This document shows positions 3,274-11,716 of a DNA stretch of 12,591 nucleotides, one piece after another. The stretch's first letter is position 1, and every line of letters starts with the position of its first letter. A program made the position numbers and the translations under genes. Origin of the DNA: Magnetovibrio sp. (lineage in GTDB: Bacteria; Pseudomonadota; Alphaproteobacteria; Rhodospirillales; Magnetovibrionaceae). The notes beneath the pieces are model-generated. The model was not told where the DNA came from and ran no database searches. It saw nothing but the letters and a program-made list of their open reading frames with translations. The stretch is from the NCBI GenBank assembly GCA_016763895.1, contig JAESSV010000129.1, positions 1 to 12,591 on the forward strand, given 5' to 3'.

Positions 3274-3360
3274 AATAATAGGGCAAAAGATGCCGCTTTT
3301 GGGGTGAAAGTTTGGCACGGTTGGGTTTTGGCTGAAAAGAAACGTAAATCTTGCGGGGCG

Positions 3361-5373: not shown

Positions 5374-6075
5374 TTAATCCGCATTTTTCGGTTTAAGCGA
5401 TTTGTTTTCGACCTTGAAGGTGTCTTTTTTAAACGTAACACCGAATTCAGGACCCAACAGCGATACCGTTGTGGTGATGCCTTGGGCATCTAAAACGCTC
5501 CATTGCTTTAACGCCAGCGGTTTATCGGCAAACACCAAGGTTAAAGCGCCTTCGGCCGGATCAGCATTGCGTTGCAAGGAAATTCGGATGACGCCGGCTT
5601 CGTCCACATAATCGGAAATTAACAAATCATCGGCAAAAAAATCAACCGTTTCGCCAATGAACATGGATGCGGGCACCGAACTTAATAAAGTGTAGCTGCG
5701 TTGATCGAGCTGTTTGTCTTTGTACATCATCCAAAACCCACCAGATACCAACAAAATGGGGCTGGGGGGATCATATTCAATGCGCATAAGACCGGGGCGT
5801 TGCATGGAAAATTGGCCCTGCGTAAAATCCCCAAGGCTGGTGATTTGCAAGAAACGAGCGCGCATGCTTGAAATCGCATTCAGGTAGGTCTGGATGGATT
5901 TAAGCTTTTGCGTTTGTTGTGCATCAAGCCCGATGATATCTTTTGCCTCGGCGGTTTTGGGCAAGGTCAAGGCGGCGATGATAAAAATGCTGGCGATGGT
6001 AATGAGCCCAACGACAATGCGCTTTAACGGAAAAGGGCTGTTGGGGATGCCTTGAACGGCTGGTTCTTCACTCAT
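5374..6075 (-). CDS. lolA: LolA-type outer-membrane lipoprotein carrier protein
   Basis: LolA accepts lipoproteins from the LolCDE complex at the inner membrane and carries them across the periplasm to the outer membrane. The 233-residue product begins with an 18-residue polar stretch, then a basic residue pair (LKR) and a hydrophobic stretch (about 20-37) ending near TAEA at about residue 44, a plausible but long signal peptide. Family features in the mature part are YLNAISSMRARFLQITSLGDFTQGQFSMQRPGLMRIEYDPPSPILLVSGG, then FADDLLISDY, and KPLALKQWSVLDAQGITTTVSLLG near the end. AAGG lies eight bases before the ATG. No alternative start is seen before the hydrophobic stretch. It follows ftsK after 22 bases in the same direction, a common alphaproteobacterial pair, so co-transcription is likely. 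Confidence 0.9.
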   Translation of the reverse strand: MSEEPAVQGIPNSPFPLKRIVVGLITIASIFIIAALTLPKTAEAKDIIGLDAQQTQKLKSIQTYLNAISSMRARFLQITSLGDFTQGQFSMQRPGLMRIEYDPPSPILLVSGGFWMMYKDKQLDQRSYTLLSSVPASMFIGETVDFFADDLLISDYVDEAGVIRISLQRNADPAEGALTLVFADKPLALKQWSVLDAQGITTTVSLLGPEFGVTFKKDTFKVENKSLKPKNAD

Positions 6076-6097: not shown

Positions 6098-7510
6098 TTA
6101 AGAAGCCCTGCTGACATCGCCAACCAACACTTCACGTTTGCCAACCCTGTTTGCTTTACTGACCACGCCTTCGACTTCCATGCGTTCAATAACGCGCGCG
6201 GCACGGTTATAGCCGATTTGCAAATGCCGTTGGATGAAACTGGTCGAAGCCTTGCCTTCGCGGGCAATCAGCGCGACTGCTTCGTCATATAGCGCATCAT
6301 CCTTGTTTCCGCCACCCGCAATTGATGCCCCACTTGAATCCTTTGGCGAGACATCGACTGTGACGGCCTCAACGTACTGTGGTGTGCCTTGGCTTTTGAG
6401 GAACTTCACAATGTCTTCGACTTCGTCGTCCGATACAAACGGAGCATGAGCCCGGGTGATGCGACCGCCCCCCGCCATATACAACAAATCCCCCATGCCC
6501 AACAATTGCTCGGCGCCTTGTTCGCCCAAGATGGTCCGGGAATCAATTTTTGACGTCACTTGATAACTCATGCGCGTGGGGAAATTGGCTTTGATGGTGC
6601 CGGTAATAACGTCAACGGATGGACGTTGGGTGGCCATGACCAAATGAATGCCAGCGGCGCGCGCCATTTGCGCCAAACGTTGGATAGAAGCTTCGACATC
6701 CTTGCCGGCTTGCAACATTAAATCGGCCATTTCATCGACAATAACGACGATCAAAGGCAAGGCTTCCATAGACAATTCAACGTCTTCGAATATAGGTTTG
6801 CCTTCGGTATCAAATCCGGTTTGAACGTGACGAGACAACACTTCGCCCTTTTTATTGGCATCGGCCAAGCGTTGATTATAACCCGTGATGTTGCGCACGC
6901 CCAATTGGCTCATCAACCGATAACGGTCTTCCATTTCATGCACGGCCCATTTCAAAGCGACAACCGCTTTTCCGGCTTCCGTGACGACGGGGCTTAACAA
7001 ATGCGGAATGCCGTCATAAACGCTGAGTTCCAACATTTTAGGGTCCACCATGATAAAGCGACATTGGGCCGGAGTATATTGATACAAAAGCGAACAAATC
7101 ATGGCATTCACGCCAACGGATTTGCCCGATCCGGTGGTGCCCGAGATCAACAAATGGGGCATGCGGGCCAAATCGACGATCATGGGCAAACCGCCAATGT
7201 CCTTGCCCAGCGCCAAATTCAAAGTTCCCTTGGCTTTTTCAAAATCTTGCGAAGAGAGCAATTCGCGAAGATGAACCATTTCCCGGGTTTGGTTGGGCAT
7301 TTCGATGCCGATCACGGATCGTCCCGGTACGGTGGCGATGCGCACGCTGATGGCGGACATGGATCTGGCAATATCGTTAGATAAACCGATGACGCGCGAT
7401 GTTTTTGTGCCCGCCGCAGGCTCAAGCTCATACAGTGTGACCACCGGGCCGGGGCGCACCTTGACGATTTCGCCATGGACGCCAAAGTCTTCCAGCACGC
7501 CGGACAACAT
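6098..7510 (-). CDS. ftsK: FtsK DNA translocase, motor and gamma domains (downstream half of an interrupted ftsK)
   Basis: These 470 codons encode the complete FtsK motor. The alpha/beta part has [29 protein letters not shown], the Walker A loop GTTGSGKS (about 124-131), the Walker B strand [12 protein letters not shown] (about 253-264), [22 protein letters not shown] and [17 protein letters not shown]. The C-terminal winged-helix gamma domain (about 408-466), [45 protein letters not shown], normally reads KOPS sequences and activates XerCD. The frame is the same as that of the upstream half (7520-8455). Only one TAA codon at 7522-7520 separates them, and the ATG used here lies three codons after it. 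No good Shine-Dalgarno precedes this ATG (GGA is 13 bases away). Every motif is intact, so the motor does not look decayed. lolA follows after 22 bases. Confidence 0.88.
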
Positions 7511-7519
7511 AATCGCATT

Positions 7520-7522
7520 TTA
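7520..7522 (-). other. ftsK: In-frame TAA codon interrupting ftsK
   Basis: On the minus strand the codons read GCC TTG GAA TAA AAT GCG ATT ATG TTG. Both flanks are the same frame and match one continuous FtsK. A single C-to-T change from CAA (Gln) would create this stop, and Gln or a similar polar residue fits the family pattern at this site. TAA is used as an ordinary stop elsewhere in the window (porin, yggS, lolA, glnK), so the codon is not globally reassigned. Confidence 0.9.
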
Positions 7523-8455
7523 TTCCAAGGCGGCCTTGGTCATGCCTTTGTTTGCTTTGGGGTCGGGTGTGGCCAGCAAATCGAGGGGCGGCAATTGAAA
7601 GTCTTCGCCCGCGTCATTTAAATCAAACTTGCCTTGCCGTTGAGCCGTGGCCTTGCGCCCCGTCTTCAAGGTTTTAGAATTGTCGACAACCAAACCCTTG
7701 GTTTTGGGTTTTGGGTTGGCGGTGGTTTTTTTGGGGCTGCGCCGTTTTTTCTTGGCAACGACCAGATCATCATCATCCTTTGAAAGCGGGCGCACGTGAC
7801 CCAATAAGGCGAGCACGGCTTCACCAACTTTTCGATTGAGACGTATCCCGGCCCGCGCAAGGGCCTGCCAATCTTCATTGGGTAAGCCCAACGAAAACAC
7901 AAAAGCGGCCAATCCCGGCACGGCCAAGACTCCGCCGATGGAAAGCGCGGTTATATAAGGAATCGCCAAATCAAGATTGACAACGGTTTGCCCGATGCGA
8001 TCCATCAACACTTGTCCTGTGACGCCGCCCAAGCCAACATTCAAGGGCCATGCGGCAAACGGAGGCAACAAAGTGATCACCGCGCTGAGGGTCATAAGGG
8101 CCACAAGGGCCAACACCACCCGCAGCCAAAGTTGCGGAACGCCGCGTTTGCGCACCAACAAAACGCCCCAAGCCAGCAGGCTCATACCGGGCAAAAGAGC
8201 AGCAAGACCAAAGCTTTGCACCATAAGGTCAGCCACCATGGCGCCGGTTTGACCCAATACATTGAGGGCCGGGCTATCCGTAGCAGAATTCATGGAAGGG
8301 TCAGCGGGGTTATAGGTGGCAAGCGCGGCGAGGTAACCCACGCTCAAGACGCAAAAAATCAGCCCGGAGAGCTCGCTCATCCGGCGGGCAAAAAAGGCTG
8401 AACTCCCTTGTGGTAAAAGAGGTCCAGAACCAAGCTTTTGGGCAAGCCATGTCAT
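7520..8455 (-). CDS. ftsK: FtsK membrane and linker domains (upstream half of an interrupted ftsK)
   Basis: This 311-residue product is the N-terminal half of FtsK, which anchors the protein at the division septum. Four membrane helices are visible: about 28-48 (LSGLIFCVLSVGYLAALATY), 74-102, 112-132 and 160-190. The family segment DPSMNSATDSPALNVLGQTGAMVADLMVQSFG lies between the first two. A basic linker follows (VVAKKKRRSPKKTTANPKPKTK), then the motor-proximal FQLPPLDLLATP. The frame ends in AALE followed by TAA (7522-7520) and continues in the same frame as NAI and then the motor half. Related FtsK proteins run through here as E-(Q/x)-NA..L..VL.DFGV, so the stop replaces an internal residue of one full-length protein of about 785 residues. 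In E. coli the N-terminal domain is the part essential for division. The start ATG at 8455 has a poor ribosome site and is preceded by the hairpin at 8470-8494. Confidence 0.85.
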   Translation of the reverse strand: MTWLAQKLGSGPLLPQGSSAFFARRMSELSGLIFCVLSVGYLAALATYNPADPSMNSATDSPALNVLGQTGAMVADLMVQSFGLAALLPGMSLLAWGVLLVRKRGVPQLWLRVVLALVALMTLSAVITLLPPFAAWPLNVGLGGVTGQVLMDRIGQTVVNLDLAIPYITALSIGGVLAVPGLAAFVFSLGLPNEDWQALARAGIRLNRKVGEAVLALLGHVRPLSKDDDDLVVAKKKRRSPKKTTANPKPKTKGLVVDNSKTLKTGRKATAQRQGKFDLNDAGEDFQLPPLDLLATPDPKANKGMTKAALE

Positions 8456-8534: not shown

Positions 8535-9758
8535 TTAGGCCTGAAGGTCTTCTTCGGGGTATGCACTGATATTATGCAAGGACAAGTCCGCGCCGCGATA
8601 TTCATCTTCGGGTATTAGGCGGATGCCGATCGTGGCTTTAAGCGCCCCATAAATCAGAAAACCCGAAATTGTGGCGATGACCACGCCCGTTAACGACCCA
8701 ATCAATTGTGCCGTGAATGTAACGCCGCCGAGGCCTCCAAAGGATTTTAAGCCAAATATGCCCGCAGCTATGCCGCCCCAAAGACCACACATGCCGTGCA
8801 AGGGCCATACCCCCAAAACGTCATCAATTTTCCATTTTATTTGGCACAAGTTAAAGAACCAAACAAACAAACCTCCGGCAACAACACCGACGGCCAAAGC
8901 TCCGATGGGGTGCATAATATCAGAACCCGCGCAAACCGCGACCAATCCAGCCAAGGCACCGTTGTGAATAAAGCCCGGGTCTTGTTTGCCCGCAACCAAA
9001 GCCGCCAAAATACCGCCGGCCAAAGCCATCAGTGGATTAATGGCCACCAGACCCGTGACACCCTCGACGGATTGAGCACTCATGACGTTAAATCCAAACC
9101 AGCCCACCACTAAAATCCAAGAGCCCAAGGCCAGGAAGGGAATATTTGAGGGGGGGATGCCAATAATACGGCCGTCTTTTTTATAGCGTCCAAGGCGCGC
9201 GCCCAACATGACCACGGCGCCGAGGGCCAACCACCCGCCCATGGCATGAACCACAATTGACCCGGCAAAATCATGAAAGGGAGCCCCGGCAAAATCTGTG
9301 AGCCAGGCTTGATAGCCAAAACGATCGCCCCAAATCATGCCTTCGAACATGGGGTATACAACGGCCACCAAAAAAGCCGTGGCGATCAATTGCGGCCAAA
9401 ATTTAAATCGTTCCGCTATGCCACCGGAAATAATGGCCGGGATCGCGGCGGCAAAGGTCAAAAGGAAAAAGAACTTTACCAAATCAAAACCGTTTTTGGC
9501 AAAGCTTACCCCGTCAACGGCCGTGGAACCCGTGATCACCGAAGCACTGGCAAAAAATTGAACGCCGTAAGCGACCCAATAGCCGATAAAAAAATAGGCA
9601 AGGGTCGAAACCGCAAAATCGGTGATGATTTTAACCAAAGCATTAACTTGGTTTTTGCGCCGCACCGTGCCGACCTCTAAAAAAGCAAATCCCGCATGCA
9701 TGGCCAAAACCATGGTGGCCCCCATGAGAACAAAAAAGACATCCATTCCGGCTTGCAT
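8535..9758 (-). CDS. amtB: Ammonium transporter, second and diverged AmtB paralogue
   Basis: This 407-residue inner-membrane protein belongs to the Amt/Rh family and should form a trimeric channel for ammonium. It has about 11 hydrophobic segments. The twin pore histidines are H171 (HDFAGSIVVHAMGGW) and H321 (WPLHGMCGLWGG), the entry-gate phenylalanine is likely F102 (LTFAAAIPAIISGGIAER), and the family loop GWFGFNVMSA is present. Unlike the neighbouring amtB it has no signal peptide and starts directly at the first membrane helix (MQAGMDVFFVLMGATMVLAMHAGFAFLEVG). The C-terminal tail RLIPEDEYRGADLSLHNISAY keeps the features through which PII proteins regulate AmtB. AAGGA lies eight bases before the ATG. 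Its own sigma-54-like element (9798-9818) and the terminator before it suggest separate transcription from glnK-amtB. Its sequence is clearly different from the upstream amtB, so this is not a recent tandem copy. Confidence 0.92.
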   Translation of the reverse strand: MQAGMDVFFVLMGATMVLAMHAGFAFLEVGTVRRKNQVNALVKIITDFAVSTLAYFFIGYWVAYGVQFFASASVITGSTAVDGVSFAKNGFDLVKFFFLLTFAAAIPAIISGGIAERFKFWPQLIATAFLVAVVYPMFEGMIWGDRFGYQAWLTDFAGAPFHDFAGSIVVHAMGGWLALGAVVMLGARLGRYKKDGRIIGIPPSNIPFLALGSWILVVGWFGFNVMSAQSVEGVTGLVAINPLMALAGGILAALVAGKQDPGFIHNGALAGLVAVCAGSDIMHPIGALAVGVVAGGLFVWFFNLCQIKWKIDDVLGVWPLHGMCGLWGGIAAGIFGLKSFGGLGGVTFTAQLIGSLTGVVIATISGFLIYGALKATIGIRLIPEDEYRGADLSLHNISAYPEEDLQA

Positions 9759-9797
9759 CGTTGATTTCCTTTAAAGTTGGTGGGTTTCGTGTGCGCT

Positions 9798-9818
9798 GCA
9801 CTTCATAAACCATGCCAA
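9798..9818 (-). promoter_or_regulatory. Sigma-54-like promoter element of the second amtB
   Basis: On the minus strand TTGGCATG, GTTT, ATGAA, GTGC follow one another, ending 39 bases before the ATG. The TTGGCATG part fits the -24 box of sigma-54 promoters (TTGGCACG); the -12 part (ATGAA versus TTGCA) is poor. The element is 17/21 identical to the one upstream of glnK, including the unusual GAAGTGC end, which is the best support. No NtrC-type site is evident nearby. Confidence 0.45.
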
Positions 9819-9926
9819 ATTTTGGAATTTTCTTAACCTATTGTTTTATATGTATTTTTTAGGGCGTGTCTGAAAAGAGAAAAGAATCGAAAACTTTGAA
9901 GCTGGGCAGGTAAAGGGCATTTGCCT

Positions 9927-9975
9927 AAAATAAAGGCAAAACAAGGCCGAGGGGAAAAGTCCCTCGGCCTTGTTT
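9927..9975 (-). terminator. Strong rho-independent terminator after glnK-amtB
   Basis: AAACAAGGCCGAGGG (9939-9953) pairs perfectly over 15 bp with CCCTCGGCCTTGTTT (9961-9975) around a seven-base loop. Read on the minus strand it is followed by a T-rich tract (TTTTGCCTTTATTTT). It lies 47 bases after the amtB stop at 10023. A smaller 7-bp hairpin, TTTGCCT/AGGCAAA (9920-9940), overlaps its 3' end. Confidence 0.9.
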
Positions 9976-10022
9976 CGGTGGTTTCGAAACGCTCGTTATA
10001 TAAATCTACAAAGCGTGTGGCT

Positions 10023-11339
10023 CTATAGAGTGTGTGCGCCGCGTCCAAACTCTGGGTAGGCTTCCAAGCCAAGCTCGGCTTTATCAAGCCCCAGAATTTC
10101 ATCTTCTTCGTCAACCCGAATACCCACGGTCATTTTGAGTATCAGCCAAGTGATCGTAGAGGCGACGATGACGAACCCGCCAATGGACAGAACGCCGATC
10201 AATTGAGTGCTAAAGCTTGTATCGGGATTGGTCAGCGGAACCGCCATGGTGCCCCAGATACCACAGAACAGGTGAGCTGGAATTGCGCCCACCACATCGT
10301 CGATTTTAAGCTTGTCCAAAAGAGGCACGGCAAAGACGACAATCGCACCACCCATGGCACCAATCAAAATGGCAGACCCCAGCGTGGGTGTATCGGGTCC
10401 CGCCGTGATAGAAACCAAGCCACCGATGGCTCCGTTAAGCGCCATAGACAGATCGACTTTTTTGTACAGCAATTGGGTCAAGATCACGGCCATGACCACA
10501 CCGCCTGCTGCGGCCATATTGGTGTTGGCAAACACATTCGCCATTGTAACGGCGTTTGCGGCTGAATCCAAAGCCAACACAGAACCGCCATTGAAACCAA
10601 ACCAACCGAGCCAAAGAATAAAGGTTCCGACCGTTGCCAAAGGCATGTTTGCCCCGGGGATAGGTTGAACCGCGCCGGTTGATGAATATTTGCCTTTACG
10701 TGCGCCAAGGATGATCGCGCCGGTTAAAGCGGCCCAACCGCCAACCGAGTGAACGATGCTTGAGCCTGCAAAATCAGCAAAGCCCATTTCCGTTAACCAG
10801 CCACCGCCCCATGTCCAAGCGCCTTCGATGGGATAGATGAAAGACGTCAACACCACAACAAAGATCAAGAAAGGCCACAGTTTAATGCGTTCTGCGACGG
10901 TACCCGAAACAATGGAAGCCGCCGTTGCGACAAACACCATTTGGAAGAACCAATCTGATGTAGCAGAATAACCGGCTTCAAAATTTGGTCCGGTTTCTGC
11001 AAGAGCCTTGGCATCATCGGCTGCCCAAGGCAGGATCGAGCCAATGTAGCCGGTCACGTCCATATACATAAGGTTATAACCAATGGCGTAAAAGGTGATG
11101 CCGGCTATGGCATACAAGGTGATATTTTTAAGACAGATGGTCGCCGTATTTTTAGACCGCACCAGACCCGCTTCCAACATGGCAAAACCCGCCGCCATAA
11201 ACATAACCAACGCACCATTGATCAGGAAAGAAAATGTGTTGAGGATATAAGCCGTTTCCGCAGAAACTTCTGCAAAGGCCGGGGTCGCCAACATCGTAAG
11301 TGATGCGGTCAGCCCCAAAATTAAAGTTTTTTTAGACAT
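10023..11339 (-). CDS. amtB: Ammonium transporter AmtB, partner of GlnK
   Basis: This 438-residue Amt-family inner-membrane channel imports ammonium under nitrogen limitation. It begins with a cleavable signal peptide (MSKKTLILGLTASLTMLATPAFA), as in E. coli AmtB, and then 11 membrane segments. Pore residues visible are H197 (DFAGSSIVHSVGGW), H356 (IPAHLFCGIWG) and the likely gate F136 (FFQMVFVATA), with the conserved D189. The C-terminal tail VGIRVDEEDEILGLDKAELGLEAY is the segment that contacts PII trimers in the family. The gene starts 11 bases after glnK, with AGGAG placed immediately after the glnK stop and six bases before the ATG, so the two are one operon. A 15-bp-stem terminator ends the transcript. 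The second amtB lies further downstream. Confidence 0.96.
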   Translation of the reverse strand: MSKKTLILGLTASLTMLATPAFAEVSAETAYILNTFSFLINGALVMFMAAGFAMLEAGLVRSKNTATICLKNITLYAIAGITFYAIGYNLMYMDVTGYIGSILPWAADDAKALAETGPNFEAGYSATSDWFFQMVFVATAASIVSGTVAERIKLWPFLIFVVVLTSFIYPIEGAWTWGGGWLTEMGFADFAGSSIVHSVGGWAALTGAIILGARKGKYSSTGAVQPIPGANMPLATVGTFILWLGWFGFNGGSVLALDSAANAVTMANVFANTNMAAAGGVVMAVILTQLLYKKVDLSMALNGAIGGLVSITAGPDTPTLGSAILIGAMGGAIVVFAVPLLDKLKIDDVVGAIPAHLFCGIWGTMAVPLTNPDTSFSTQLIGVLSIGGFVIVASTITWLILKMTVGIRVDEEDEILGLDKAELGLEAYPEFGRGAHTL

Positions 11340-11350
11340 TGAAGTTCTCC

Positions 11351-11716
<366 letters not shown>

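Follow-up and report, generated by a model that had tools for sequence, protein, structure and literature searches.

The window analysed here (the whole stretch of 12,591 nucleotides of the Magnetovibrio sp. contig JAESSV010000129.1) carries an ftsK gene that lies in two pieces of one reading frame (Table 1). On the minus strand, the junction reads GCC TTG GAA TAA AAT GCG ATT ATG TTG TCC, so that the pieces are separated only by TAA AAT GCG ATT, and the ATG that is the candidate restart (position 7510) is the fourth codon past the stop. Both the minus-strand sequence and the open reading frames (ORFs) bear out the preliminary description of this locus, according to which an in-frame TAA divides ftsK. 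The split is not a chance ORF pattern; when 4072 adjacent in-frame segment pairs from 684 kb of the same genome are ranked by the hexamer coding signal flanking the stop on either side, the ftsK pair comes first. A lolA-like gene follows directly downstream, and an ORF start resembling it is found after ftsK in two genus-mates, G002 and G003, where the identity as LolA is assigned by sequence resemblance. The window also contains two tandem ammonium transporter genes (Pfam), and the ORF adjoining them is presumably GlnK/PII-like.

Table 1. Features of the ftsK locus and further isolated in-frame stops in conserved genes of the same draft
Feature	Sequence	Position	Strand	Basis
ftsK 5' part, 311 aa: 4-TM membrane domain, linker, initial ~24 positions of the alpha domain	window	7520..8455	minus	ORF; Pfam FtsK_4TM (PF13491, 6.6e-27); alpha limits from intact genus-mate
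In-frame TAA of ftsK; sense codon in all relatives readable at the column	window	7520..7522	minus	sequence; 108/108 relatives
ftsK 3' part, 470 aa counted from the ATG: remainder of the alpha domain, RecA-like motor and gamma domain	window	6098..7510	minus	ORF; Pfam FtsK_alpha (from position 29), FtsK_SpoIIIE (PF01580, 5e-72), FtsK_gamma (PF09397, 4.8e-26)
lolA-like gene	window	5374..6075	minus	Pfam LolA 3.3e-19
Two tandem ammonium transporter genes	window	8535..11689	minus	Pfam
purD, in-frame TAA	L208 (G000:C54)	2635	minus	16/17 loci read: D 4, A 4, E 5, K 3
panC, in-frame TAA	L209 (G000:C55)	998	minus	15/17 read: E 5, K 2, T 2, one each A, R, V, Q, S, N
msrQ-like gene, in-frame TGA	L132 (G000:C2)	3112	minus	16/17 read, all Trp TGG; Pfam Ferric_reduct
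HlyD-family adaptor, TAA near gene end	L145 (G000:C15)	3392	minus	17/17 read
def (peptide deformylase), in-frame TAA and a frameshift near 3340	L148 (G000:C18)	3431	minus	17/17: E 16, one masked base

The two pieces together match alphaproteobacterial FtsK in domain content and order (4TM domain, linker, alpha/beta motor and gamma domain) and differ from it by the one in-frame TAA inside the alpha domain. In agreement with the earlier statement that FtsK domains are kept on both sides of the stop, the Pfam matches comprise FtsK_4TM in the first piece and FtsK_alpha, the alpha/beta motor and FtsK_gamma in the second. The motor ORF further contains GTTGSGKSV and a 10-residue motif, which we take to be Walker A and B, respectively. 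The placement of the stop exactly between the membrane/linker part and the motor, as originally proposed, does not hold. On the uninterrupted G002 protein (788 residues), the stop column corresponds to residue 315, within an alpha domain that extends from residue 291 to 391, so that about 24 alpha positions stay with the membrane part and the TAA, near position 25 of the 101-position domain, cuts a domain and not the linker/motor border; the FtsK_alpha match of the second piece starts at profile position 29 of 101. As assembled, the continuity between anchor and motor is broken, whereas the gene is continuous in the four genus-mates. One of the options raised for this arrangement is a functional two-protein FtsK, in which the TAA would close an anchor protein and re-initiation at the nearby ATG would yield a soluble motor. 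The proximity of this ATG to the stop and the retention of domains in both parts are compatible with such a scheme. The cut through a folded domain, in a region also covered by the solved FtsK motor chains 2iut and 2ius, argues against it. No Shine-Dalgarno-like sequence is seen by eye just before the ATG, which may point the same way; at the starts annotated for ftsK and lolA themselves, a ribosome-binding site is at most weak (AAGG before lolA).

Comparison with relatives, all of other species, covered 40 related genomes in addition to the draft itself, four of them genus-mates, together with the best 80 of 582 candidates from a named genome collection. A motor match is present in 37 of the 40 genomes; the stop column is readable in 28 of these, the G016 sequence (locus L017) ends short of it, and the remaining eight, with frames of 701-862 aa, were assessed by frame length only, except that in one of them, G028, the alignment runs through the stop region without a stop. 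The flag of an internal stop in G028 was rejected as referring to the terminal stop, and apparent splits were likewise dismissed for the short frames of G016, G012 and G023, which are cut by contig ends, and of G017, where the frame changes in the linker. The latter change, in another draft of the same family, is located at about position 2033 of L113 (G017:C82). The resulting set comprises 110 loci (30 from whole genomes, including the draft under study, and 80 from the named collection), of which 109 are readable, all with distinct sequences. The preliminary description named an uninterrupted ftsK in all close relatives as part of what would refute it, and as far as the relatives go this is what is seen: all 108 readable relatives have a sense codon at this column, the present sequence alone has a stop, and ftsK is uninterrupted in all four genus-mates (open frames of 785-819 aa), to which the motor part is 84-90% identical. 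The residues at the column are Q in 68 relatives, E in 11, K in 9, R and A in 7 each, N in 3, G in 2 and H in 1, in line with the earlier remark that Gln is common there. In the 16 same-family sequences, the codon is invariably CAA, from which TAA differs by a single base, and the protein flanks of the stop (27 protein letters) are identical to those of G002 and G003. The Met at the restart position is present in all 16 same-family sequences and in 37 of the 109 overall, and so is an ancestral residue of the protein, not a new start. The ancestral Met, together with the absence of a split from all 108 readable relatives, further counts against a two-protein FtsK, which we consider most improbable; the same low standing is assigned to its specific form, in which the TAA would be fixed in this one species and FtsK would be produced as two proteins, a septal anchor and a motor translated on its own from a start within the alpha domain.

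A recent nonsense mutation in the sequenced strain, or in part of its population, would also explain the stop; the motor would then be lost or weakly made, and selection would either be removing the mutation or letting it persist, given that the membrane part is retained. The single-base distance from CAA of the same-family sequences is consistent with this possibility, and so is the condition of the gene, with no other obvious decay in either part. The dN/dS comparison of both halves, one of the checks proposed at the outset, gives no more than a rough sign against long-standing decay of either part, with saturated dS and with the N part of G004 taken from an inner Met (264 codons). Pairwise NG86 estimates for the motor, all with saturated dS, are dN 0.071 and dS 1.38 between the present sequence and G002 versus 0.051 and 1.63 between G002 and G004, and those for the N part are 0.353 and 1.32 versus 0.377 and 2.74, respectively. 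Clear relaxation does not appear in these rough estimates, which speaks against the mutation, although a very recent one would leave no trace in dN/dS anyway. At otherwise invariant columns among 8 sequences, the motor has 11 private changes, near the top of the range of 0-12 seen in the others, and the N part has 2 (0-9 in the others).

The window corresponds to contig 75 of the source genome, a draft of 293 contigs and 1.94 Mb with an estimated completeness of 59.41%. Neither the motor nor the membrane part of a further ftsK turned up in the contigs of this 59%-complete draft. A scan of 684,406 bases in 101 of the 293 contigs, among them the window, yielded the 4072 adjacent in-frame open-segment pairs mentioned above, which were ranked by coding signal; candidates for internal stops were chosen by eye among the top 40 pairs and from shorter lists. 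Many of the top 40 looked by eye like separate adjacent genes, the stop being closely followed by a start codon. Among these, adjacent pairs that are presumably pntA, hemE-hemH and iscS-iscU were set aside as normal gene boundaries. Five candidates that look internal were each compared with 15-17 same-family sequences, those falling short of the junction being dropped. All five of these conserved genes contain an isolated in-frame stop where relatives have sense codons, namely purD, panC, a Ferric_reduct gene that we take to be msrQ-like, a gene for an HlyD-family adaptor, and def (Table 1). At the HlyD-family column, the 11 closer sequences have E in 7 cases and K, R, D and Q once each, and 6 distant paralogues all have G. 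Counting ftsK, roughly one third of the draft holds six or more isolated internal stops. Two other loci of the draft are of note. A hemerythrin-like gene, identified from its sequence, is seemingly interrupted by a TAA (L178, G000:C24, position 1096, minus strand), and a second HlyD-family match consists of two overlapping pieces, one with an internal TGA (G000:C149, 7071-7666, minus strand). The same scan of 299 kb from the genus-mates G001-G004 gave no clear internal stop among the 22 top-ranking pairs inspected by eye; at the rate of the present draft about 2.6 would be expected there, and the genus-mate contigs hold masked stretches, so that the contrast with the draft is weak.

The presence of similar stops in other genes of the draft makes a base error or a chance mutation likelier than a new two-piece motor, all the more so as these other lesions hit unrelated genes. 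The stops elsewhere fit a lineage under relaxed selection as well as they fit errors. The interrupted genes, however, include purD, panC and def, the loss of which is costly. A genuine recent nonsense mutation ranks second among the explanations and appears rather unlikely, if distinctly less so than any functional use of the stop.

Five of the six confirmed internal stops are TAA, and the sixth is TGA at a Trp codon (msrQ-like). Under the codon usage of this genome, 45.5% of random nonsense changes give TAA, and the probability of at least five TAA among six is about 0.07; the excess is thus not unusual. If all six lesions were random substitutions, the implied rate would be approximately 3.5e-4 per base, a rough figure because the denominator includes only segments of at least 200 codons and detection is incomplete. 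Damage of the C-to-T type was rejected as the sole cause, given that GAA or GAG predominates among the relatives at the def column and in the closest HlyD-family sequences. The prevalence of TAA is the one observation that would favour stop-codon readthrough, which had been raised for ftsK, or reassignment of TAA. Yet TAA is also the commonest terminator (of 372 closed long open segments, 212 end with it), the stops stand in place of different residues in different genes so that no single reassignment explains all six, and one of the six is not TAA. A UUA anticodon, as a suppressor tRNA would have, does not occur among the 16 tRNAs found, though this genome is 59% complete. Reassignment was rejected on the ground of the main-terminator role of TAA and the variety of replaced residues, and readthrough or reassignment taken together can be given hardly any credence. 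Apart from the layout of the locus, there is no positive evidence for readthrough or for a functional two-protein FtsK, and the occurrence of the other lesions in unrelated genes disfavours both.

These observations are best compatible with an ordinary full-length alphaproteobacterial ftsK that contains a single wrong or minority base call in the draft, a reading to which we assign a probability of about 0.74. A sequencing or assembly error was among the options listed initially, and it is now the best supported, with a stop that is unique among the relatives examined, in a 59%-complete draft in which five other genes contain stops. A consensus base error, or a minority variant, would have placed TAA where the gene has a sense codon. 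As several conserved genes unrelated to ftsK also carry isolated stops in this draft, and at least one of them a frameshift, the ftsK stop probably belongs to a background of base-level lesions, and the gene in the living population would most likely be one continuous reading frame. We infer a technical cause instead of a fixed mutation. Two points weigh on the other side of a draft error: the TAA sits mid-contig, away from the contig edges, and G-to-T changes, possible for 2-4 of the six lesions, could reflect a real mutational bias.

The presence of similar isolated lesions in purD, panC, the msrQ-like gene, the HlyD-family gene and def of the same assembly is a trait shared with the spurious pseudogenes of draft assemblies. 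Cooley and Wright 2024 (PMC11017572) report that internal stops in assemblies are often due to base miscalls and to sequencing and assembly error at low coverage, and that their number tracks assembly quality. The six-stop pattern, in which genes that are otherwise conserved show single internal stops and, in one case, a frameshift, fits that account. A search of an open-access library found nothing relevant on an ftsK described as split or as ending at a premature stop. SftA, the soluble FtsK/SpoIIIE homologue of Bacillus subtilis, is already known as a motor of this family that lacks an apparent transmembrane domain (PMC4744071). A separate FtsK motor would resemble SftA in this respect, but SftA is a homologue distinct from SpoIIIE, whereas the two parts seen here lie in one frame of one ftsK.

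A true split would mean that the anchoring and DNA-pumping functions of FtsK are separable in a natural division machine. As the evidence stands, the locus is mainly a caution: when a draft genome shows one stop in a conserved gene, the number of such stops elsewhere in that draft should be taken into account.
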